This document shows, piece after piece, positions 3,720 through 64,000 of a stretch of DNA of 64,000 nucleotides. The stretch is taken from the NCBI GenBank assembly GCA_963678705.1, contig OY783211.1, forward strand, positions 18,118,603 through 18,182,602. Reading direction: 5' to 3'. Each line of letters starts with the position of its first letter. Within the stretch, counting starts at the first letter, position 1. Under the pieces are notes generated by a model. It made no database searches and was not told the DNA's origin. It saw only the letters and a list, made by a program, of their open reading frames with translations. Origin of the DNA: Panorpa germanica (Eukaryota; Arthropoda; Insecta; Mecoptera; Panorpidae). A program made the translations under genes and the position numbers.

Positions 3720-4219
3720 TGCTTATTTAAGGCATTTTTTTTTTTTTTTTTTTTTTTCATTTATTAAATTTAATAGCACCTCCTAGGCTTCCGCCCATAT
3801 GTGCTGCTTTTTCCACTTATTCTATCCCCCTTAATTTTACATTTCAATTACATTAATATATGTTTATAGGAACAAATAAAATATGTACAAAGTAACTTAT
3901 TATAACTCATTTTATCTAATTTACTGTTCAATGTCATCCACCGTGAAATTATCCCAATTCCCTTGCTCTAATTCCTCTCCTTCACTTCCTATTATTGTCT
4001 CTGCATCTCTTCTTCTTCTTACTTCATCATTCTTCAATAGCATTTTCCTAGTTTCAAAAATCTCCTTCGCATACTCATTATAATATCGATACCTAATCTC
4101 TTCATTTACTAGGTACTCTAGACTTTCAATTTCTCTGACTTTTATTCTATCTTGAAATTTCACTCTCGCTTCATAGTAGTCTGGGCATTCTTTTAATATA
4201 TGTATGCTTATTTAAGGCA
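3720..4219 (-). mobile_element. 5'-truncated non-LTR retrotransposon with target-site duplication
   Basis: On the minus strand the 15-base sequence TGCTTATTTAAGGCA occurs on both sides (3720-3734 and 4205-4219), a perfect target-site duplication. Next to the left copy is an uninterrupted run of 23 T (3735-3757), which is the poly(A) tail read on the other strand. Between them lie the last ~95 codons of a LINE ORF2 and a ~160-base 3' UTR. This is the classic product of target-primed reverse transcription with 5' truncation. The intact duplication and tail suggest a fairly recent insertion. Confidence 0.93.
3921..4202 (-). pseudogene. C-terminal fragment of LINE ORF2 polyprotein
   Basis: The minus-strand frame opens at the truncation point and reads HILKECPDYYEARVKFQDR near its start. 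The H-x-L-x-x-C-P-x-Y pattern is the end of the zinc-knuckle-like motif found downstream of the reverse transcriptase in many Jockey/I-type LINE ORF2 proteins. The rest is a charged tail (residues ~20-94) rich in E, R and D. The reverse transcriptase and endonuclease domains are absent, lost by 5' truncation, so the fragment cannot act. It belongs to the insertion at 3720-4219. Confidence 0.8.
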
Positions 4220-14793: not shown

Positions 14794-15685
14794 GAAACCT
14801 ATCTAAATTAAAATTGAGGCTATTGGAGCCGCAAATTGGCCGCATAAATGGCCGCAAATTGGAGATAACAAAAATTTGCTAACGCACATATATTGATATT
14901 TAAAGGACTGCATAAATATTTGTTAAGCAGAAACTCTATTAGTTTTCAAAACCCAAGAAATTGATTAAAATCGATTTCTATAATTTTACGAAACTAAAAT
15001 TAAAAATTATCGTTCAAAGAGGAATAAGTGATAGATGAATCTATTGTGTACGCAGACATTACGTTCCAAGTCCATGTAAAACACCATTTGGTAATCAACA
15101 TAACATTAGTAGTCATTTTGTATAAGGTTTGTATTTGAAAATTTGCATAATCAAAGTGCATGTACTACAAATTACAAATTACGGAAAAAAATAAACAAGA
15201 AACTAGCAACAAAGTATGTACACAGTAATAGAAGTTCTGAGTCGACCCGACGACCGAGAACACTGACACCGACACCGACACCACCACCGCACCACGCCAC
15301 CGACATCAACTACTGCACTCTGCAGCAATTTACAGTTCACTTCTGTAAGTTTCTGCTAAAATATAACCTAATTAAATGTACGTTAAATATTATATGTATG
15401 TAACCATTTGTTTATGAATATACCCCGTATACGTATAGAACACATGCGTTCGAAACTGTTTAACTAGTCATAAAAAAATGTTGTCGCCTGAATTGTATGC
15501 AACTTGTTATTCATTTTTATAGTAAATTTGTATAGTGAATATTTTTTATACAATTAAATTAAGAAATTACGATTTAAGACAGCAAAAGCTATAGTGATAA
15601 TAAATAGAAAATGGCACATTCAAATCTGGATGACAGTTGAAAGTGTAGCAGAATCGTAATTGTTGTACAGTAAATCGTTTTCTAA
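14794..15685. other. Non-coding DNA with a CCGACA-type simple repeat
   Basis: AT-rich except for a GC-rich patch at about 15240-15310 containing CACCGA/CACCAC tandem units. An ORF of 86 codons crosses it but has low-complexity Thr/Pro content and no domain I recognise. Confidence 0.45.
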
Positions 15686-15686
15686 T

Positions 15687-16096
15687 GCCGGTTCCAAACG
15701 ATGCTACGAACACCTTCCTACGTTGGATACTTGATTGTTGGAAATGTCCAATATCATGTGTCCAATGACTTCGTGTTGGAAGTAGTTTCGGGCTGTTGTA
15801 GGTCTTTTGAAACGCTTCAAGAGGGATTTTTTACCCCCGCCACACACTTGATCCACATGTGCAGGAATCGTTCAACAAAGGAAGGTTTTATACTTGAAAG
15901 TTTCTTTATTTACTTAAACAGTGTCAGTGTCAATAATATCAACAAATTAATAAAATAAATAAATCATTCGTATCAAACATTCGTTCCACCGTGTAGTAGG
16001 AAACTTGCAATGTCAATCTTCCAATATTTGACTCACACGTTGGAGGCTGGAGTTGAATTTGAATCGAACGTTCATCGCATCGTTTGGTACCGGTTT
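15687..16096 (+). mobile_element. Family A MITE, copy 2 (both ends present)
   Basis: The left end reads GCCGGTTCCAAACGATGCTA and the right end GCATCGTTTGGTACCGGTTT, giving inverted repeats of about 20 bp with a few mismatches. The interior carries the same landmarks as copies 1, 3 and 4, including AATAAATAAATCATTCGTAT, CAAACATTCGTTCCACCGTG and TCTTCCAATATTTGACTCAC. Length is about 410 bp. The target duplication is not clear for this copy (TAA left, TTG right). An 85-codon ORF inside is not conserved between copies, so I do not treat it as a gene. Confidence 0.85.
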
Positions 16097-16342
16097 TGAC
16101 GTTGTAGCAGCACGATTTACTATTATATGGCTATGTTAACTAGTTTTTGCGATAACTAAGAGTTCAGCAAACGGGCTGTCGTTGAAGTTGACACTGGATG
16201 ATAGTAAACTGTCTTAGGACACGTTGCTAACTCGGTACAGGCCATATAAAACTAATTTCTTTCTAATCTCAAATAGTTCCTTAAGCTGTTTTTAACGCCA
16301 CTATCGACAAGAACCTTTTAGGAATTAGTTAAATAAGTTAAT

Positions 16343-17374: not shown

Positions 17375-17820
17375 ATGACTCTCACTATGGGGTACTGCAT
17401 CTACCTCAAATATTGAGATAATCCAAAGATTTCAGTCCAAAATGCTAAGGATTGTCACGAATGCACCATGGTTTATACCTAATCACATAATATATCGGGA
17501 CCTGGATATACCTACAGTAAAAGAAGAAATAGTGCTTAGAACCAAAGTATACAAGGAGAGAATAATAGAACATCCAAACAATTTGGCCAGCTGTCTAATG
17601 TTCAATATTTCCACAGTACGCAGACTGAAAAAGAAGGTACCTCAGGACCTACTAGCCAAATAAACAGAATCTAGGATCTATTAAAATTGAGGGATGAGTC
17701 GATGGGCACATCTCACGCAAGACATTTTATTTTGACATACCTATCACTGAATGTCATATAAGCAGGACAGATTGTAATAATCTTTAGTAATCAAAAAAAA
17801 AAAAGAAAAAATGACTCTCA
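17375..17820 (+). mobile_element. 5'-truncated Jockey-type LINE with 10-bp target-site duplication
   Basis: ATGACTCTCA flanks the insertion on both sides (17375-17384 and 17811-17820). The insert runs from 17385 to a poly(A) tail at 17793-17810 (one G interruption). It consists of 92 codons of LINE ORF2 C-terminus, a stop and about 130 bases of 3' UTR. Exact duplication, tail and 5' truncation together are diagnostic of LINE retrotransposition. The frame has no internal stop, so this copy is probably young. Confidence 0.94.
17385..17663 (+). pseudogene. Jockey-clade ORF2 C-terminal fragment
   Basis: The frame begins LWGTASTSNIEIIQRFQSKM and continues through TNAPWF and DLDIPTVKEEI. These strings (LWGTAS.SNIEI.QRFQSK, TNAPW, D.IPTVKEEI) are the conserved region near the C-terminus of insect Jockey-clade reverse transcriptase proteins, downstream of the catalytic domain. 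About 92 residues remain of a protein normally near 900. The ATG at 17442 is an internal methionine, not a start. The fragment ends at a natural stop (17661-17663). It has no expected function. Confidence 0.9.
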
Positions 17821-45773: not shown

Positions 45774-46190
45774 GAATACCTTCTAACGTTGAACGCATCG
45801 TGTAGCCGATGTTGGAAGTAAGTGTGTCCAATGTCATGTGTCCAACATTCATGTTTGAAGAAGTTCGAGCTGTTGTCGGTCTTTTGACCCGTGTCACAAA
45901 GGCTTTTTCCATCCCCACCACACACTTGATCCACATATCATGCATTGCTGGACGAATCGTCCAACAAAGTAAGGTTTTATACTTGAATGTTTATTTATTT
46001 GCTTGAAAGTTTTTCTTAAACAGTGTCAGTGTTAATAATACCAACAAATTAATAAAATAAATAAATCATTCGGATCAAACATTCGTTCCACCGTGTAGCT
46101 GGAAATTTGCCATATCAATCTTCCAATATTTGACTCACACGTTGAAGGCACACATCGTTCAATCAAACCTTAACCGCATAGTTTCCAGCT
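45774..46190 (+). mobile_element. Family A MITE, copy 3
   Basis: Starts within the ACCTTCTAACGTTGAACGC block (compare ACCTTCCAACGTTGGACGC, reverse strand of copy 4). It keeps the GTTGTCGGTCTTTTGA, CACACACTTGATCCACAT, TCGTCCAACAAAG and AAATCATTCGGATCAAACAT landmarks and ends ACCGCATAGTTTCCAGCT with TTA next to it. The extreme left terminal repeat is not recognisable. Short ORFs on both strands in this region are incidental. Confidence 0.82.
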
Positions 46191-49693: not shown

Positions 49694-49696
49694 TAA

Positions 49697-50034
49697 AGCC
49701 GCCTGCAAACGATGCGGTGAACGTTTGATTCAAGTATTGGAAGATTGACATGGCAAGTTTCATACTACACGGTGGAACGAATGTTTGATCCGAATGATTT
49801 ATTTATTTTATTAAATTGTTGATTTTATTGACACTGACACTGTTTAACAAAAACTTTCAAGTATATAAACCTTCCATTGTTGGACGATTCGTACAATACA
49901 AAAGACCGACAACAGCCCAAACTTTTTCCAACATAAACGTTCGACACACTTAGTTCCATCATCAATCACACAATGCGTTCAATCATTAAGCGTCCAACGT
50001 TGGAAGGTGCTCGTACCATCGTTTGGTACCGGCA
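49697..50034 (-). mobile_element. Family A MITE, copy 4 (complete, TAA duplication)
   Basis: The 338-bp copy is inverted relative to copies 1-3. It begins AGCCGCCTGCAAACGATGCG and ends CCATCGTTTGGTACCGGCA, with TAA on both sides (49694-49696 and 50035-50037). Its first ~30 bp match the reverse of the right end of copy 1 and its last ~20 bp match the reverse of the left end of copy 2, so it fixes the boundaries of the family. No transposase. TWA-type target choice and a GC-rich end fit PIF/Harbinger. Confidence 0.9.
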
Positions 50035-50039
50035 TAACA

Positions 50040-52035
50040 ATAACACAGATCCATGACAAATGTTCGCGAACCTTCTATCCTCCAACAAAAAGGTTTTCCT
50101 GGTGAATACGCGGCTTAAACCTTTATTTTATTGTAATTTATTTCTATGACGTACATGTCACTTCAACATCATCTCTCAGTGACTCTTTTTACGGTATTCA
50201 CACGTTTAAAGGAGTCCCAGGTGGAGTCCCCAGGTACACAGTTCCCCGATCCCAGGTGCTTACTGAAGTGACCAGTCATTGCGGTTACAATAGCTAATTG
50301 GAAACGCTAAGGTAATGTAAACGGATTTTGTTGTACGAGTATTGTATGAATGTGAATGTTATTTTTTATGTACATCGAGGAATTGTGTTTATTAATTTAT
50401 ATTATTTAATTTATTATTTTAATAAAGGTATTTCATAACGATTCTTGGTATTATGTATTATGTGTTTGAAGTAGTGACGTATTTTGAACGTAAAACAGTG
50501 TCAATAGCGTTGCCCAAACTATGACTCGTAGGCCGAAGAAGATTGCTAAACTGTTTTACCCAAAAGCTATAAGAAAATTGCTGTAATAGAATAGATAAAT
50601 TCATAACTACAATGTCATTTCCCAGGTAGAAAATTGTCTAGGAATACTTGTTAGCTTCTCATAAACTAATTCCATTCATTCATTTTGTTCCTTTTCTACT
50701 TCTTATTTAGAAATTGCATTGCAATGGAAGTTTTACCATTCTTATCTAGCTACAAAGTAATTTCAAGGTTAATTTTCTACTTGAAATGTTACTACAGACT
50801 AAATTAATAGAAAACCATAATATTTCGGTGGCACTTGGAGATATTGTGTTTCATTTCTAACCTCAGAGTTTTTACTTTAGATTAAAATAAAAATATCACT
50901 ACTTTTCATGGAAATATTGCGTTCTTCTATTGTTGACAGACCCTATACACTAATACTTCTTCTCACAAACCTTTTGCAACATAAATTACGCAACTTGAAT
51001 CCGGGAATATTGTTTTGTAATTTTCATTTAGTCACCCAAATAACAACCTGGTACTTAATGTCATTCTCTTCAGCATCACAAATCCCTGTAACCCATCTTG
51101 ATACGAGTGTCTCTGATAATTTGATTTCATTCAAAAGATTGCGGTATTTACCCATGACGCATTTGGAATAGTAATAAACAATAGTCATTCAATAAAACCT
51201 TGACCGGCCTTCAATCAGATACCGTACTGAATACGGCGTACACTGTACACTGGTGTAGTGAACAGAACACCTCCGTTTCCACGGCTATTAATAACCATAA
51301 CACTATTAATAATTCAAGTTATGATGCAAATTAAATCACGAAACAATTACCCGCGAAATGCAAAATGCGAAATGCGAAGCGAGATCAAACAGCGTCAACA
51401 ACAGCAATTCATCTTAAGTTACTCATTGGAAATAAAATGTGTGACTATTGAAAGTATTGACAGCTACGTCGATTCTAGAAAAGTTGTTAACGTTGTTTTA
51501 CCTGTAAATTAACTTTGATGTTATTCATTTGTATTTGTTTTAACGTTTTTGCCGATGATAAAACTCTAACAAAGTTATACTTTTAAAAGCGAAATATAAA
51601 TTTATCACTTGAAAAAATGAAAGTACAATAATAAATGTCCTATGAGAATAATTGAAATTTACACTCTGCTTCAAATAAATGAAAACACATCCTGTAAAAA
51701 ATGAATATTTTTAAAAATGTATTATTTTTAATACATTTACCCATAATTAACCTTTCAATAAATCTCTACGTGTTACAAATGAAAAATAACGAACCTATCC
51801 ACCCTACTACGAATAAATTTCAAGTTCATTATCAGATGATGTTTCAATGCCAAGGTCTGAGCTTAAAGCACATCAATAGAGAAGCACTGAAGTAAAAAGC
51901 TCAGGAAAATCTAACACCCTTATAAACAACTAAGTCCTACGTTATAAATCTTTCATTGTTTAAAAATTCTCATACTACATATATTTTCGAATGAATAAAT
52001 AAATTAATAACAACCCTTAAGCACTTTGTTTCCCA
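50040..52035. other. AT-rich non-coding DNA
   Basis: Holds the CCCAGGTAGAAAATT repeat copy at 50631-50815. Three ORFs of 64-87 codons (50908-51171, 51258-51512, 51701-51895) have no recognised domains and look like chance reading frames. Confidence 0.5.
50631..50815 (+). repeat. CCCAGGTAGAAAATT interspersed repeat, copy near 50.7 kb
   Basis: Begins CCCAGGTAGAAAATTGTCTA, matching 37726. Internally there is TTAATTTTCTACTTGAAATG, a possible inverted counterpart of the start, followed by GTTACTACAGACTAAATT near the end. Similarity in the middle is poor. Confidence 0.45.
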
Positions 52036-52037
52036 CA

Positions 52038-52038
<1 letters not shown>

Positions 52039-52070
<32 letters not shown>

Positions 52071-52073
52071 CCC
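52039..52073 (+). repeat. (ATTTTCC)5 minisatellite
   Basis: Five tandem 7-bp units, the last with one substitution. Confidence 0.95.
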
Positions 52074-52199
52074 GTAACTCGGTGTTCATCTGACTGGCTG
52101 CCACACACTGAACAGTTACGGTATACTACGTAGATAGGTCGGGAGACACTCGTGCTCTATCGACCATATAATAAAGTTAACTCCGTAACCGTTCGGGTT

Positions 52200-52260
52200 A
52201 TACGACATTATAATGACGTCATATGTATGACGTCACAACGATGACGTCATATATTAGTGA
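52200..52260. promoter_or_regulatory. Triple TGACGTCA cluster
   Basis: Three exact copies of the palindromic octamer TGACGTCA (52214-52221, 52228-52235 and 52242-52249) are spaced exactly 14 bp apart start to start. The octamer is the full cAMP-response element bound by CREB/ATF bZIP dimers in animals. The even spacing may equally reflect a short tandem duplication. No adjacent exon could be defined. Confidence 0.5.
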
Positions 52261-52656
52261 CTACAATGTAGAGGGGATCTAATGGAAAGGGGAAAACTCT
52301 TTAAAGCTATGAAGCAGGTATTTTACTTTAATGAAAGAGATAAAATATATACGTATATTGGTTTCTCTGTTTTACATATCTGGATTAAATGGAGATATAG
52401 TAGGTGGGATTTTTCTACTATGATAACAACGGTTTAAATTTCAGGTAAAATGCAACCATGAGAAATGTCAATCTCAATTTAATTAACGATAAAAATTCAT
52501 TTGATATTATTTGTCAATTAAGCTTGTCAAATTTTTGAAAAGTTTTTTTTTGTTATGTAGATTTTTAATAATTAATTTTATATTTATAACATACGAAAAA
52601 ATAGAGTACATTCCCATAACAGTTAAATTATATTACATTTAATAGATTAAAAAAAC

Positions 52657-53569: not shown

Positions 53570-53990
53570 AGATTTTTTATATATATACATATATACATTC
53601 TAAATTGTGTTGTCTCTCAAATTATGATGCTCCAGCCCACAAGCTTTAAAACTTATTCTCACAGTCGACAAGAAACCCTTTCAATTTTGAATTACAATCG
53701 CCTTTAAATTTGTGGCGCCCCCGTGAGGCTCTGACCTATGCCTAATAATCCATGAGAATAATTCAGGAAAACTTAACATTTAAAATTTCTTATCTTAACA
53801 TTTTTATATCTGATATTAAATCTATAGGATACTAAAAAGCACCGCCTACATATTTTTTGAAGAGAAAATATTAAAATGCAATAAAGCGAATAGTAATGAA
53901 ATTAATTATACTTTAAAAATCCTTGTAAAAAATATGTTGTTTTTAAAATAATATATTTGAATTATAAATTGAAAACAAATGATATGGGAC
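53570..53990. other. AT-rich non-coding DNA
   Basis: Nothing recognised apart from a short GC patch (GTGGCGCCCCCGTGAGGC) near 53710. Confidence 0.5.
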
Positions 53991-53994
53991 CTGT

Positions 53995-54215
53995 AGCCAA
54001 CCACTTGGCATGGCACGTGAAACCACGCAGTCCGCCCACGCCCACGCACAAATACAACCGCCGTAGAACGCATAACGCGTCGGTGTACCTGTAAAGTTCA
54101 TCTCCATGAACACCATGGAAACAGAAAGCTCTGAATTGATGACGTCACGTTCAGAACGAGAGAGAGAACGCAATGAACGAGAAAAGAGCAAGGAACTTTA
54201 AAGCAACTTCAAACA
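53995..54215. promoter_or_regulatory. Candidate regulatory island (CpG, CRE and GAGA motifs)
   Basis: The island combines CCGCCCACGCCCACGC near 54032, a CACGTG-like GGCACGTGAA near 54012, the octamer TGACGTCA at 54140-54147 and a GAGAGAGAGAA tract near 54160. On the minus strand an ATG-led frame reads MVFMEMNFT up to an AG|GTAC donor-like site. This looks like an enhancer or promoter rather than a protein gene; the 82-codon minus ORF has no known domain. Confidence 0.35.
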
Positions 54216-54574
54216 AACAAGCAGCAACAATGTGGGAAGTTCTGAGAACTTTCAGAGCTTTGAGATTAAAGCTGCGTTTGTTAAGCTACGGTACATCGTA
54301 TGCGTATTTTGACGCAAGAGCTTTTTAAATAGATACTTTTAAAAATAAAACATTTGTAAAATTTAATGAAATTATATTTACAGATACCAGATCAATTTAC
54401 GATTTACCAAAATAAAGTGCTATTTTTCACACAACATTTCGTTTTTATTCTTATTATTGCCTGTATCAGTTGGACAGAATTGTTATTGAAAGTACGTGCA
54501 GCTTCCTCCCCGTTTGTTTTCACCGCAAAAATAGAAATGTTGTAAAAACAATAATTATATTTAGAACAGTATGT

Positions 54575-54901: not shown

Positions 54902-55330
54902 CAAAACCAGTGCTGGACGCAATTAAGTAGCAACAAATTGAAATTGATTAAGTAAAATCCGGAAAAGTGGGAAACTTCTTATCAGAGCAACAGACTATTC
55001 AACAAAGCCATCTTCAGACTAAGAACTGGATATATAAGATTAACGCATCAACACTTAATGAGTAAAATAACAGGTCCGCAGTGCAGCAACTGTCAGACGC
55101 AAATAACAGTCCATCATCTACTAGTAACCTGCCCACAATATCAAATTCATCGAACAAAACACAGCATCAGTGGTGACAAGGACATGCTTTTAGAGAATTT
55201 AGAAGAAATTCAAAAAGTGCTTGAATTCCTAACTGATATATACTTAATAAATCAAATGTAACTAAAATAAAATAACTTCAGACCAACATGACCTTGTCGT
55301 TGAAATCGCCTCCAAATTTTAAAATAAAAT
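54902..55330 (+). mobile_element. I-like LINE, 5'-truncated copy 1
   Basis: Contains about 118 codons of LINE ORF2 C-terminus with one internal stop, a natural stop at 55261 and a 3' UTR (AACTTCAGACCAACATGACC, TGTCGTTGAAATCGCCTCCA) ending TTTTAAAATAAAA. The 3' UTR matches the minus-strand copy at 52664-52878, so the shared end is the element terminus. GGCAAATTC upstream (54893-54902) and GCCAAATTC downstream (55331-55339) may be a decayed target duplication. Confidence 0.87.
54905..55261 (+). pseudogene. I-like LINE ORF2 C-terminal fragment
   Basis: The frame reads NQCWTQLSSNKLKLIK, a TAA stop, then KWETSYQSNRLFNKAIFRLR, TGYIRLTHQHLMSK and PQCSNCQTQITVHHLLVTCP. The W...NKL..IK, R.R.G..RLTH..L and C..C...TV.H.L..CP motifs are characteristic of the RNase H-adjacent and zinc-knuckle C-terminal parts of I/Jockey-group ORF2 proteins. 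The ATG at 55058 is an internal residue. The premature stop and missing reverse transcriptase make it a dead fragment. Confidence 0.88.
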
Positions 55331-56779: not shown

Positions 56780-57180
56780 ATTGCAATCGAAATTTTCCGG
56801 ACAACATCCTTAAGAAAAGCATCCCTGTTTGAGGGGAGGAAGTTTAGTATCACCCTAATACATTTATTACTCAATTTAATGGCATATCAATATAACACGT
56901 GCATAATTTGCACTGACGGACGGCACAAAATTAATTACGTCATCATCTTTATTTATATATAGATAGGTTTAGATATAGCGGACAGCTTGACCACAAAGCC
57001 AAAAGAGTTCCCCTATATCCTCTCAAACATATGTATAGATATAACCCATACAAGTCTATTAAATCACACATACGAATGATTTTTTATAGTATGCACACAT
57101 ACAAGTTAAATAAACTTAGCACACACACATATATAAGCACACAAACGTAGTGTTCATTTAACACGGAAACTGTACTTTAC
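56780..57180. other. AT-rich non-coding DNA
   Basis: Nothing recognised; several CACACAT-type short repeats near 57060-57150. Confidence 0.5.
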
Positions 57181-57199
57181 TATATGTATTATACTAGAC

Positions 57200-57345
57200 C
57201 TATACATTCTATTAATGACGTAACAGTTCGGTGACGTCATATGCGCGAACTCACTCTGCAGAGGAGAAATGGATATAGTCTAAAAGCAAACACGAGTATT
57301 CCTCAGTTGCACGTTGACTCTCAAAGCGGTAGTATTGGTGTATAT
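57200..57345 (+). promoter_or_regulatory. Candidate promoter upstream of two putative first exons
   Basis: Contains TGACGTAA at 57215, the octamer TGACGTCA at 57232-57239, a GC-richer ATGCGCGAACTCACTCTGCA segment and CCTCAGTTGC at 57301-57310, whose TCAGT fits the arthropod initiator (A at 57305). It lies 270 bp upstream of the ATG at 57579. No TATA box at the right distance was seen. Promoter function is inferred from motif grouping and position. Confidence 0.35.
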
Positions 57346-57578
57346 ATAAAATATTGTATTATTATCAATTAACATATATAAAAACTACTTTTACCTCCTT
57401 GTAAAGAAATAAATATAAATATATATTAGTAACTAATTGTGACAATCAATATATTAAAATTAAAAATAAGTGTTTTTTGTGAAAATAATTGAAGAGTTAA
57501 TTTTAACTGTTTACCATAAAGTGCAATTTGTGAAGTTCTTTTTATATGAAAGTGATGGATTAGCTAATTGTTATACGT

Positions 57579-57731
57579 ATGAATATTTGTATGAAGTTTA
57601 TAAATTTTGCTATAAAACTGGATGAACAGTTGAGGCGGCCGTTGGCCGAAGAAAAAATTAAAATTATAGATTCATGTGAAGAAACAGAATCCTCTAGCAC
57701 TAGCAAAATTACTACAGGTGACCTAGTCTAG
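57579..57731 (+). CDS. Candidate alternative first coding exon 1
   Basis: An ATG-initiated frame of 50 codons with protein-like composition: KLDEQLRRPLAEEKIKIID, then an acidic/Ser-rich SCEETESSSTSK stretch. The codons after TTACTACAG hit a stop (TAG at 57729). An AG|GTGACC donor at 57717/57718 would cut before it, leaving 139 nt, that is 46 codons plus one base. A GGCGGCCGTTGGCC segment makes it GC-richer than its flanks. The peptide contains no family motif I recognise. A candidate promoter lies upstream, and the gene would continue beyond the window on the + strand. Confidence 0.35.
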   Translation: MNICMKFINFAIKLDEQLRRPLAEEKIKIIDSCEETESSSTSKITTGDLV

Positions 57732-58030
57732 TTGTTTTTTGTAGTAAACAATTTTTTTGTTTTTTTTTTCTTAATATTATTTTTGGTGTTGTATTTTTTG
57801 TATTCAATGTTAGATATTATATATTAAAAGACAACGAAATGAAAGATTAGACAATTTAAAAAATGCATGACTTTACTTTTAAATTTACAAACTGTTTTTA
57901 CTGAAAGATTTATTTGAAAAACTTTCAGGATTGTGTAAACTAAACTTTTATAATGAGTTTTCAAAAGTGTTTCAATTTATGTGTTTATTTCAATGACGAT
58001 TGAATATAATGTATTCATTTTTAAACCGAA

Positions 58031-58177
58031 ATGCGAACAAAACTATCCAATAGAACTAAAAAACCAGAACCCCATGAGTTCTTGAACCCCGCTTTGCCTC
58101 AAGCTTCCGCAACAGATAGAAATAATAACTCCGATGCCAGAAATCTTCAAGACTATTACAATATAAAGTGTACGTAA
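58031..58177 (+). CDS. Candidate alternative first coding exon 2
   Basis: An ATG with an in-frame TAA nine bases upstream opens a 48-codon frame. It begins MRTKLSNRTKKPEPHEF, continues LNPALPQASATDRNNNSDAR and reaches LQDYYNIK. A GTACGT donor-like site follows 139 nt after the ATG (58169/58170); beyond it the frame stops at TAA. Basic N-terminus, Pro/Asn/Ser-rich middle and GC content above the flanks suggest real coding. Exon length and donor phase are identical to the candidate at 57579, as needed for two first exons sharing a downstream exon. The family is not recognised. Confidence 0.38.
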   Translation: MRTKLSNRTKKPEPHEFLNPALPQASATDRNNNSDARNLQDYYNIKCT

Positions 58178-60720
58178 AATTTTATTTTAATTGAGTTATA
58201 TTAATATTACTAACACATCTTACTAATAATTCATTAGCTATATCATTTATTTGTTTACGTATTACATTATGAATGTTTACGTACATTTAAAAGTGAAACC
58301 GAAACCGAAATCGGTATCTTCGCTTCAAAAGTAACAGACATAAAAGTTCACATCAAAGTTGTCGTTTCTTTAAATAATTTTAAAACAAACTAGTTCTTGT
58401 GCAAAAAATTATTTTGTATTATTTTTCTTTATTCAGAATTTAAAAAAATAGATTTTTTTCTAATAAATACCATAATTAAATATAATTAAATTCTTATTAA
58501 TACTTTCTGTTTGATAATTTCAAAAATTCGTGTTTTAATTTAAAAGGGTCAGTGACGGGGAGCGCTGGATTTGGAACCTATTAAGTTTTAATTTCCATGA
58601 CTTTATGAACAATTATTTTAAGTTCCTACTGTTAATTGGTGGCTCAATTTCTGTAATTAATCAGTTCTAATATTAATTATTAAAATTTTCAAAAGGATGA
58701 TTATTGTTCAAAATTTACGATGACATTCTCTTTAGTGTGAATTTGTTAAAGATTGATTTTGAGATTCTATTGATTCGATAAACAAATTTATCAATTTAAT
58801 CTACTAAACATTTCTCAAAAATAATATAACATTATATAAATGGTATATTAAATATACATAACATTTCTATAATATTAACAAATGTATAATTTTGTTAATA
58901 ATATTATTTATCTTCTTTATTAAATGTATGTTCGTCTTGTTAAAAATATGAATACGTATTTCTTCAAAATCGTAAATAAATTTATGAATATCACCAAAAA
59001 GAAAACGTAAAAAGTTGCACTTTTTTTTTCTAAGTGATCAAATTTGCATCGAAATTGATGCAAGAAATTTAGTACAGCATAAAATTATCTGCAACATGAA
59101 ATCCACGATAAAGTACAATATCATTTTCCTGACAGATGTACTAGTTGGGAAATAATTGGCTTGTTAGTTTTCACTTTTCTTTTTGTATACCATTGACTCG
59201 CTAATAAATTTTATTTAGTGTAAAAAATTACTTATTTGAGCAATTTTCGTATGACAATGTGAAGGGCATTTTGAAAATGTATATATATGTGTAATAGGGG
59301 AGGAGTTCCACAATTTACTGCATGGTTTGCAATTTATAGCAGGAAAAGTATTATTTTGCATTAACACTAGAATTGCTTTTAAATGAATTTGATAGACACC
59401 GGAAACTGAACGTATCTTCTGATAGTGTATCAATGTGTGTACCAGGAAAATTTAACTGCATATTTAACAAAATATCTATTTCTAAAATTTTAATTGAGTA
59501 CGTGACAACAGAACAACCAAAATTCGAAAATATCGCTATAAATATAAACCTTTTATATTACATACCCAACAACCGTAAATTTATAAGGTTGTAAAGTCAT
59601 ACGTATAAATTTACGTATATTGTAAAATATTTGACAAAATAATTTATGAGACTATTATTTATATATATATCATTATTATTTTCTTTTAAGGCTCCGTCGT
59701 ACAGTCTCTATTTAAACTTATTTTCTTTCTAATATGTCCCGGCAACGAGTGATACAATTTATAATTTGTTTTTTGTAATACGTAAATAAAGAATCAGATC
59801 TGTAGACTTAAAATTTTTATTGTTAAATTAAATAATATATATTTTTAAAATAACCAGGATTATGTTGGTTGAAACACTGTCTTCAGGTAGAACAATAAAG
59901 TGTCACTCTTTGAGACAAGTTCCATCAAATTTATTTTCTCGTATATTTACATCCGTTTTAGTGGATTTTGAGCGCTAATTACAGTTCTATTATTAAAGGC
60001 GTTAACGTCCTGCCCAGGATATATTTAGATACATTCTTTATACAACATATGACTTAACATCTGACTGATATAAGTTGTACGTTACATTTTGGCAACGATC
60101 TGTAACATGAATTTTCTTTGACAACAAAATACAATTCGTACTAAGTTTTTATACACTATATACAGCAGCGGATTTAGGAAAAGTACTGAGTGCTTTTAAA
60201 CTGGTATATTTCATTAGTTGTATACCACAGGTTCATTCAATATAAATAGCTACACTTTGCGTAAAAAATATTACCTAATATGTGACTCTTTTCGTATCGT
60301 AAAACATTTTTGTACTAAGAAATTTAAAAAATAACTTTTTTAGGATTTCATTATAAGCCTAAATTTTAAATTTGGTTTTACAACAACTTTTGTTTCTAGA
60401 GAATGTATAGCTATAAATAAATATAATTTAATAACAATAATTTGCAAAGATTCTAAATGTCTGTCACAAAAACATTAAAAATAAATTGTGTAACTGCAAA
60501 ATAATTTTTGTGAACATTAATTATTAAGAGATTTTTGGTTGTGAAAATAAAAAACTGATTTTTTTAAGGAAAAGAGAAAATACTGAATATGGAAATAACT
60601 GCAATTTTTTTGTAGAGAGGGAAATGGAATGGCTAAGAATTGAGGGTAAAGGAAAGTAAGGGAAGAAGAAAATGTAAAATTTATACGAAATTTTGTCTTA
60701 AGAGTATACTATACATTTCA

Positions 60721-60727
60721 TTATATA

Positions 60728-60789
<62 letters not shown>
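60721..60789. repeat. (TA)n microsatellite, about 68 bp
   Basis: TA units with a single TT interruption near the left. The YIYIY-rich ORF across it is a by-product. Confidence 0.95.
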
Positions 60790-60791
<2 letters not shown>

Positions 60792-62324
60792 CATTATAGT
60801 AACATTAGTTACAGCTTCCGTGATATATTTCTGTCTGAACTCAACAAATGCTTCTGTATAATTAAAGCTATTTTAATCCGGCAGAAACATAATTCGGCTA
60901 CAAACACTATTATTCTAAATACAAGTTCACAATTATCTCAATAATTATATCAAATTAACAAAATACTGTAAGAAATTTACTCTTCATTTCAAAAGCTTAT
61001 AAAAAAGCTCTACTCTGAGCTTTTAGTACTTTTTAATTATATAACCATTGCATTTAGAATAGCTAAAATTTGGAGATAACGAACTGGTTTTCAAGAAAAA
61101 CTTTCTTAACAGAACTAAAACTGAACTTAATACTGGAATTTATATTACATATATAGTTATATTTATTTCAAATGCTAATAAAATATGAATAATATGATAT
61201 GCTAATTATTGAATTATTGAGTAAAAGAATATTGTTAAATTGTATTACAGTTTTAAGCTTTTATCAATTGTGTCAAAAATTCCCTACCAATCAAAAATGA
61301 TTGTTCACTAATAGAACGACCTTAAGGGCCCAGTTAGAATTGTGGATTCCATGTTATTCTTTTTACTATAACTACAACAATAGAAACAATGTTGAATTAA
61401 TCGTGCACCGCGGTAATGAACATAATTAAAATAATCAGGCAGTGTTCTACAAGAAGCACAGTGTATATCGGCCAGCGTATTTATAATTAAAGATCTGATG
61501 CAGTTAAATAGTGCTGAGCGCATATTAGCTTAACGTTAGCGTTAGCGTTAGAACTATAGTCTGGTCTGGCAACGAGACACAAATGTTTTTATTTTCAATA
61601 TTACATTACTTAGATAGATGTCTGTTGCTTAAGGGCTCAGCGCCAATCTAACAATAAAACATCCAAAGACAGAGTCGAACTAGTTAAATCGTTATTAACT
61701 TGATTTTCTCGTAGAAGGTTACAAATAAAAATAGTGTTTTCGTATTTCGAATTTATTAACAAACAATTTCTCTTTTTAAAATATCTTTTGGTTTTTTGGT
61801 TAATTAAATTATAACTAGTATAAATGAATTCCTTAGAAGGTACAGATTTTTTTTTAAATATATAGCTTTAATACTTTATATCTTTGCTTATTTTTTATAA
61901 GTATAAACTAAGAAATACTAAGCCAAATTTTTCAGTTATTTTACTCACTAAAATCACTCGCCTACACTGAAAATCTTAACTACGCTGACAGACAGAATGC
62001 GACGATCTTCTTAAAAAGAATATCAATATTTAAAATAACTTCAAAATTTTCTTTCCATATAATTTTTCAACATTTTCTCACAAGTAATCATTATTTAATC
62101 AGTACATATATTCATATAGGGCTAAAGTAGCAATCTATTCTTAATATATCTATAGAATAAAAAAACCTCCCCTTAGCACAATATAACAAAACAGCTGATT
62201 GCTTCGCTTAGAACTTCGTGAGAGACCTTGGCCGTATATTACCCCTATAGATTTATATGTATATGTATACACCTTTATACTGAAATAAACTTCTATACAT
62301 AAAAAGCACATATCATCATCACAC

Positions 62325-62530
62325 AAGGGTAAATGACGTCATAAATATACCCCCACCCCCCAACTCCTATACTCTCGTCTAGATATAGGCTGTATAGACC
62401 GTTTCTCTGTGTTGATAGTATGGTAATACAGCCCACCACCTTATAGAAATAGTTAAACACTATACTCACCCTTAAGGACAAGGACGGCCACCTACCCCTC
62501 CCCCCTCTACGGCCCGTATTGTACCACGAG
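62325..62530. other. C-rich island with TGACGTCA
   Basis: TGACGTCA (62334-62341) is followed by ACCCCCACCCCCCAAC near 62350 and by CCCCTCCCCCCTC near 62495. The pattern of a CRE beside CpG- or C-rich DNA resembles the islands at 52.2, 54.1 and 57.2 kb. An 83-codon minus ORF crosses it without a known domain. Confidence 0.3.
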
Positions 62531-63393
62531 ATTTTTGAAACCATGTGCCACCTGAAATAGCAGCTGTTTTTGTGTGTGCTTTTTGTCAGTGGAAATATAC
62601 ACTAAGCTTGAACATTAAGAAAATAATATTTTCTTCGTAATATTGTTTTTTTAATTTTTTTGTATTTATTTCTGAATTCTATCCAACGCAATTTTTATTG
62701 TACCCCGCTCTGATGTTTTTAGATTGCATCCACGTTTGCTGCGAAGGGGTGTTAAGTCAAAACAAATTTATACGTTTCGTAGCTTGTGGGGGAACACTTA
62801 AGACGGTAAACATTTTTTTTCACAAAACGTTTTTACGTTTAATTTCTTTCACGTAGTAAACACAAAATATCTATAGGTACGTGTGATATATGTTGTTAAC
62901 ATCTGAATAACATGAAATAAATAAACAAAGTTAAAAATATTTAAACGTGGATGATGATGCCGATAGTGGTGATGATGATGATGAAGGTATGACGAATTTA
63001 AACTAATCCATGACGTATTCAATTTGTTTACATCATAAAATACGAGTAAATCTGATTAGTAACGACTAACAAAGTGTTTAAAATCGTAAAACATTAAACA
63101 GTATTCTCTGCAAGTAACTGTATAACGCTATACGTACGTGTTATACGAATACCCTGCTATTTTTACGTTTTATTATCAACTTAAATAAAAAACACTGCTT
63201 TATTTTCATTTATAAACATTTAATGATAATACAAACACACATCGAACAGACTTCATTCATTACGTGTTCGTTTAACATATAAATAGAAATTCGCGAAATA
63301 TTTAGACGTTGCAAAGTTTTTGTTTGAAGAATAGATTATCTTATATAATGTTGTGTACTTATTTCCGATTACTTCAAAATAAACAGAGCTTAC

Positions 63394-63430
63394 CTATTTG
63401 TATAGTTTGTGCAACGGCAAGGTTACTTCC
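63394..63430 (-). CDS. Candidate microexon A (minus strand)
   Basis: On the minus strand a 37-nt segment lies between a pyrimidine-rich TTTCAATACCAG acceptor and an AATAG|GTAAGC donor, both good matches to splice consensus. One frame reads GSNLAVAQTIQI plus one extra base (phase 1). That base joins in phase with the candidate at 23114-23176 to continue GFCASTGIF. The intron between would be about 40 kb. GC is higher than the flanks. The peptide is not recognised and the exon is very short, so chance is a real alternative. Confidence 0.22.
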
Positions 63431-63434
63431 CTGG

Positions 63435-64000
63435 TATTGAAATTGTAAAGAAAAATATAGAGCATTTGTTTTGTACGAAATTTCAATATAACAAGTTTTT
63501 TCATGAAATTTCTTGATTTCGGTTTAGCTGGTTTAACTATATAATATTTATTACCAACATAACGCAAATATTATTAATCAATTAAGATTCTATCCCTCCT
63601 CTCTTCATCGATTGCTATTATCATTCTTCAAGAAATGTTAATTAATAAATAGAATTTTAAAAACAATATGATAATTTTATATTTTTATTTTTTAAATTAC
63701 TACCTTTTTATGGCAAAAATATTTAGCTACAGCTAAAACTAACAGTAAATGCTAAAATAGTGTTCCACGTGGCAGCGATGCTTTCAAGCATAATTATAAA
63801 TATAATCTTATTAGCAGGTGTTTATAAGCAATTAGTTTTTACTAATTAATATCACGAGTTATTGAAGATATTGTTTAAAAATGTTACTTGAAAATCATAT
63901 TTTTTTCAAGTAGTATTATAGAATTTATATCTAGTTGTATGAATTTGTTATATAATATAACGAAAAAGAAATTTTCATGTATTTATGTTATCAGAATCAA
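63435..64000. other. AT-rich non-coding DNA at the right edge
   Basis: Nothing recognised. Confidence 0.55.

Follow-up and report, generated by a model that had tools for sequence, protein, structure and literature searches.

Two open reading frames and a putative upstream promoter

Towards the right end of the window, the whole 64,000-nucleotide stretch of DNA analysed here, two short open reading frames stand on the plus strand as candidate first coding exons. They are spaced by 452 nt, and promoter-like motifs lie to the left of both. The features discussed below are these (a slash marks an exon end):

57216-57239, plus strand: CRE-type pair, TGACGTAA at 57216-57223 and TGACGTCA at 57232-57239
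57274-57279, plus strand: TATA-like TATAGT, from reading of the sequence, 31 nt before the initiator A
57302-57308, plus strand: initiator motif CTCAGTT with its A at 57305; putative core promoter 57274-57308
57305-57578, plus strand: putative 5' leader, counted from the presumed start site
57579-57717, plus strand: ORF 1, 139 nt, 46 aa (MNICMKFINFAIKLDEQLRRPLAEEKIKIIDSCEETESSSTSKITT) plus 1 nt, donor CAG/GTGACC
58031-58169, plus strand: ORF 2, 139 nt, 46 aa (MRTKLSNRTKKPEPHEFLNPALPQASATDRNNNSDARNLQDYYNIK) plus 1 nt, donor AGT/GTACGT
52214-52249, unstranded: TGACGTCA three times at 14-nt spacing, another promoter-like stretch
62334-62341, unstranded: a further TGACGTCA, 3' of both ORFs
54140, 11334, 11838 and 13535, unstranded: other TGACGTCA copies from the motif scan

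The initial annotation had described ATGs at 57579 and 58031, each followed after 139 nt by a phase 1 GT donor and by an early stop, and these coordinates are exact. The two frames, their donors and their phase are directly established. In-frame stops precede both ATGs (57561 for ORF 1, 58022 for ORF 2), and others follow the donors (TAG at 57729 and TAA at 58175, respectively). Both donors leave phase 1, as alternative first exons of one gene would have to. Among the 6992 GTs of both strands, scored with an approximate insect donor matrix, the donor at 57717 belongs to the top 0.4%, while that of ORF 2 at 58169 is mediocre (top 6.2%). Two competing GTs close to where ORF 2 ends, at 58167 and 58173, score far lower and would lead to phase 2. 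The donor and acceptor matrices, the amino-acid frequencies and the codon weights used throughout are approximate insect values, and ranks derived from them are relative.

A sequence motif together with a "TCAGT cluster" had also been described upstream. The motif is there, as TGACGTCA at 57232, but the cluster shrinks to a single TCAGT (57303) in 57100-57700. The excess of TGACGTCA is itself directly established: 9 copies in the window against 0.59 expected under a first-order model, as judged against this window's composition. By this ratio the motif ranks third among the 256 palindromic octamers, behind two that occur once and twice. When the window's own sequence is used to fit a fifth-order model, the expectation rises to 4.3. 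When up to one mismatch is allowed, 38 matches are found against 17.5 expected, a number that none of 100 shuffles reaches.

The copy at 57232 lies 70 nt before the initiator motif at 57302, with the start site placed from the sequence, and TGACGTAA stands 16 nt before it. Of the 21 plus-strand occurrences of YTCAGTY, only the one at 57302 sits 55-105 nt 3' of a TGACGTCA; at least one such case arose in 634 of 5000 random placements. CRE, TATA-like box and initiator motif lie before ORF 1, and of such elements only a TCATTT, at 58015, lies before ORF 2. In addition, 8 ATGs lie upstream of ORF 2 in 57731-58030, so that its transcript would have to begin close by or carry a spliced leader.

The stretches at 52.2 kb and 57.2 kb were compared as possible duplicated promoters, and this idea was rejected: among the matches listed, their alignment consists only of CRE motifs and AT-rich runs. 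Among the listed self-matches of the window (67 at E 1e-3) none touches 56900-58300 or 52000-52400, and therefore no repeat is seen there. On the minus strand of 52080-52260, a TTCAGTG (52106-52112) and a short ORF from 52089 (MNTELREMENGKWKMENVWE...) face the CRE triplet. From these surroundings, the triplet may act as promoter for a divergent gene transcribed to the left. A further promoter-like stretch, 53980-54300, is G+C-rich and carries CACGTG at 54014, a GAGAGA run and the TGACGTCA at 54140; it is absent among the 60 self-matches listed.

Coding character, splicing routes and chance expectation

ORF 2 forms a G+C island: G+C is 38% within it, 23% on its left and 21% on its right. By this contrast with the flanks it ranks 12th among the 126 open ATG stretches of 46 codons in the window; ORF 1, with 32% G+C, ranks 33rd. 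By a simple log-odds measure of codon use, ORF 2 scores +5.3 and ORF 1 -1.5. We take this score as supportive for ORF 2 and not beyond that, because many stretches elsewhere in the window score higher, and a part of these are likely repeats or promoters. The ATG at 58031 has GAA directly before it and G at -3 (CCGAAATGC), a good start context. The ATG at 57579 has C at -3 (TACGTATGA), a poor context, and just 5' of it, at 57546 and 57555, lie two tiny ORFs. Of the two ATGs, the one at 58031 makes the stronger candidate for the start of a protein.

It had been suggested that a gene pointing to the right begins here, with both ATGs as alternative first exons. The first part is made plausible by the two CRE-type sites, the TATA-like box, the TCAGT initiator and the strong donor, and also by the raised G+C and good start context of ORF 2; from these features we infer transcription and splicing, and an insect gene that starts in this region and is transcribed to the right is more likely than not. 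The second part stays putative, given the poor context and slightly negative score of ATG 57579 and a downstream region in which no shared exon was recognised. That region, 58170-64000, was examined for exons of at least 30 codons behind a common acceptor, and its longest phase-compatible open stretch behind acceptors scoring at least 0 has 44 codons and an acceptor score of 0.1.

Between the two ORFs, the best acceptor before ATG 58031 is at 57745 (top 3.5%) and another, weak one is at 57929 (top 32%). Acceptor 57745 leaves an intron of 27 nt after 57717, and an intron of 27 nt is too short. A single frame leading from ORF 1 into ORF 2 was also considered and rejected: when 57717 is joined to 57929 the frame stays open for a further 22 codons and stops at 57994. 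As this stop comes before ATG 58031, the ORFs are not one frame via 57929.

These observations bear on a rival arrangement, in which the protein has a single start at 58031 and the ORF at 57579 is leader sequence, whether as an upstream ORF of a 5' exon or as noise. It is suggested by the contrast between the two ATGs in context and codon score, and by the two tiny ORFs before 57579. However, of the two donors the one at 57717 is stronger, and neither acceptor offers a good route from it to ORF 2, one being weak and the other leaving the 27-nt intron. We consider this arrangement rather unlikely. Two alternative N-termini remain putative, a claim for which the strength of donor 57717 is the chief argument; ORF 1 may be either an alternative first coding exon or a leader ORF.

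How often such a pair would arise by chance was estimated from the window itself and from simulation. ATG ORFs of at least 46 codons number 50 on the plus strand and 47 on the minus strand, 97 in total. When we counted ATG ORFs of at least 40 codons whose donor, 120 nt or more further on, scores no lower than the weaker of these two, the 64-kb window gave 11 cases on the plus and 16 on the minus strand; 60 order-3 Markov strands of 64 kb gave a mean of 7.0 and a maximum of 12. Qualifying pairs within 1 kb were one on the plus strand (57579/58031) and three on the minus strand, one of them same-phase and none of equal length. In the simulated strands, pairs within 1 kb occurred in 34 of 60, same-phase pairs in 19 of 60 and equal-length pairs in 1 of 60. 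With same-phase pairs in 19 of the 60 strands, the shared phase of ORF 1 and ORF 2 is unremarkable and is no evidence. The equal length of 139 nt is rare, yet it carries no functional meaning, because splicing depends on phase and not on length.

Both ORFs might be chance open frames in AT-rich intergenic DNA, with the CREs belonging to an enhancer or to repeats. The 97 ATG ORFs and the frequency of same-phase pairs in simulation argue for this, as does the outcome of the Pfam and PDB searches, in which neither a family nor a structure match was found. The G+C island of ORF 2, the donor in the top 0.4% and the resemblance of ORF 2 to a TKKP-type N-terminus argue against it, and among the listed self-matches no repeat appeared at either promoter-like stretch. 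On balance we regard chance frames as improbable.

Resemblance of ORF 2 to a Kayak (Fos) N-terminus

ORF 2 begins with MRTKLSNRTKKP. An N-terminus of Drosophila Kayak (Fos), which we take to begin MKVKVERTTKKP (believed to be isoform A, the letter being uncertain, A or sro), matches this start M to M with 6 of 12 residues identical. The ungapped BLOSUM62 score of ORF 2 against this 12-mer is 34, the best of the 1080 ATG frames of at least 12 codons in the window. Shuffles of the ORF 2 peptide reach it in 3 of 200000 cases, and some window frame does equally well against a shuffled Kayak 12-mer in 14 of 2000; the true multiplicity is larger than these shuffles imply, because the Kayak reference, which does not come from a database, is provisional and was drawn up with the peptide in view, its first versions leaning towards the window's letters. 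When the full ORF 2 peptide is compared, 31 of 5000 shuffles are as good, and beyond residue 12 ORF 2 diverges from this N-terminus.

The panel compared comprised six N-termini, three of them labelled as Kayak isoforms, and is small and likewise provisional. The other five scored at most 10 with ORF 2 and at most 23 with any frame of the window. Against the N-terminus matched by ORF 2, ORF 1 scores -4, which is no match; its best score with the five others is 12, at its second methionine and with another Kayak N-terminus, and it matches none of the three Kayak N-termini of the panel. By tblastn, a provisional Kayak stretch of 81 residues found its best window match at ATG 58031 with E 1.4, which is chance level, and three other Kayak stretches gave better but meaningless matches elsewhere (E 0.11, 0.17 and 0.29). 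The provisional Kayak bZIP and common region yielded nothing convincing in the window by tblastn. The Kayak common exon presumably starts F-E-T-G, which predicts an acceptor AG/TY-GAR-ACN-GGN; this string is absent in the window. Taken together, the identification of the gene as Fos (kayak) is a fair lead from sequence resemblance.

Other searches returned little. Pfam gave no usable match for the ORF 1 peptide, the ORF 2 peptide or the ORF at 59340, and nothing above the curated cut-off for 10 other ORFs of the window. PDB sequences gave no usable match to either peptide, the sole match having E 7.4. In the window Rfam found 0 matches at the gathering score and ARAGORN 0 tRNAs. Text searches found no paper for the peptide EFLNPALPQ or for the Kayak peptide, and no relative was found in the viral contigs scanned. 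The sole match to ORF 2 in the contig collection (residues 9-27, 68%) was rejected as a chance match to a bacterial gene: it sits inside a stop-to-stop frame of 394 codons, cupin-like by eye, on a G+C-rich bacterial contig. TKKPEPHEF also occurs in this bacterial cupin-like protein (L001:1604-1660), and therefore short peptide matches can arise by chance.

A candidate inducible gene

The reading that we tentatively prefer, at somewhat less than an even chance, is that of a rightward inducible gene with a CREB/cAMP-type promoter, the Fos orthologue kayak/fra, whose first coding exon would be the ORF at 58031. The CRE pair at 57216/57232, the TATA-like box at 57274 and the initiator at 57302-57308 would form a promoter answering CREB/cAMP-type signals. 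The ORF at 58031 would supply a Kayak-type N-terminus (M-K/R-x-K ... TKKP), and the ORF at 57579 would be a leader ORF or would give, from the upstream promoter, another N-terminus unrelated to the first. If there were two N-termini, both first exons would be joined, in phase 1, to one common Fos body lying to the right of 64000, and promoter choice would decide which N-terminal segment joins the bZIP protein.

This preferred reading can be set beside insect Fos and Egr genes. Two isoforms of fra (Fos) are described in cricket, one with a truncated N-terminus, and forskolin raised fra-A, not fra-B or egr-B (PMC6140108). The same paper describes isoform-specific N-terminal regions for Drosophila Kayak isoforms. 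ORF 2 begins with a candidate N-terminus resembling the TKKP type of the Kayak reference, and the CRE sites would fit the forskolin-inducible fra-A. Unlike in kayak/fra, the bZIP body was not found in the window. By analogy, a CRE-bearing promoter before a Kayak-like first exon would fit Fos biology. A promoter with two CREs near the putative start site and an initiator is also like that of egr-B/stripe (PMC6140108). Unlike egr-B/stripe as described there, both peptides lack the N-terminal motif MIM(D/E)F; moreover, the egr-B/stripe promoter has an SRE, whereas the three CArG (SRE-type) boxes of our window are all more than 14 kb away. Cricket egr-B was unresponsive to forskolin despite two CREs in its core promoter (PMC6140108), and therefore CREs alone do not prove a cAMP response.

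A CRE-type promoter and two in-phase alternative first exons could also belong to another inducible gene, not kayak. The CRE excess and the in-phase donors are independent of the Fos match, and alternative promoters are described in other insect activity-regulated genes, e.g. egr/stripe (PMC6140108). The panel of N-termini speaks against it, since one Kayak N-terminus out of six matched ORF 2 with 34 against at most 10, in what is a small and provisional set. We consider this explanation unlikely.

For the Fos gene, it is tempting to propose a fuller arrangement, in which two unrelated first coding exons are served by several separate CRE sites (the triplet at 52.2 kb, the pair at 57.2 kb and the singles at 54.1 and 62.3 kb) and cAMP chooses the N-terminus. 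We infer the identity of the gene and this isoform switch from motifs and frames, and consider the full arrangement doubtful. If it were true, cAMP would select whether one AP-1 protein receives an acidic/serine-rich N-terminus or one of the TKKP type. If the preferred Fos reading is right, a CRE-driven Fos promoter with isoform start exons would be at hand in an AT-rich insect genome. Such a promoter could serve to report activity or cAMP and would let one ask whether promoter choice alters the AP-1 protein. Alternative first exons of an immediate-early gene are a well-known arrangement, so that this would be a new instance of it, ordinary if true.

Elsewhere in the window, decayed frames resembling non-LTR retrotransposons were recognised by eye at 54956-55258 (plus), 17379-17660 (plus) and 3924-4211 (minus), for which Pfam gave nothing above the cut-off. 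One dispersed repeat is present in four copies, at 552-887, 15685-16100, 45789-46184 and 49694-50035, which are 67-90% alike and partly open in frame.
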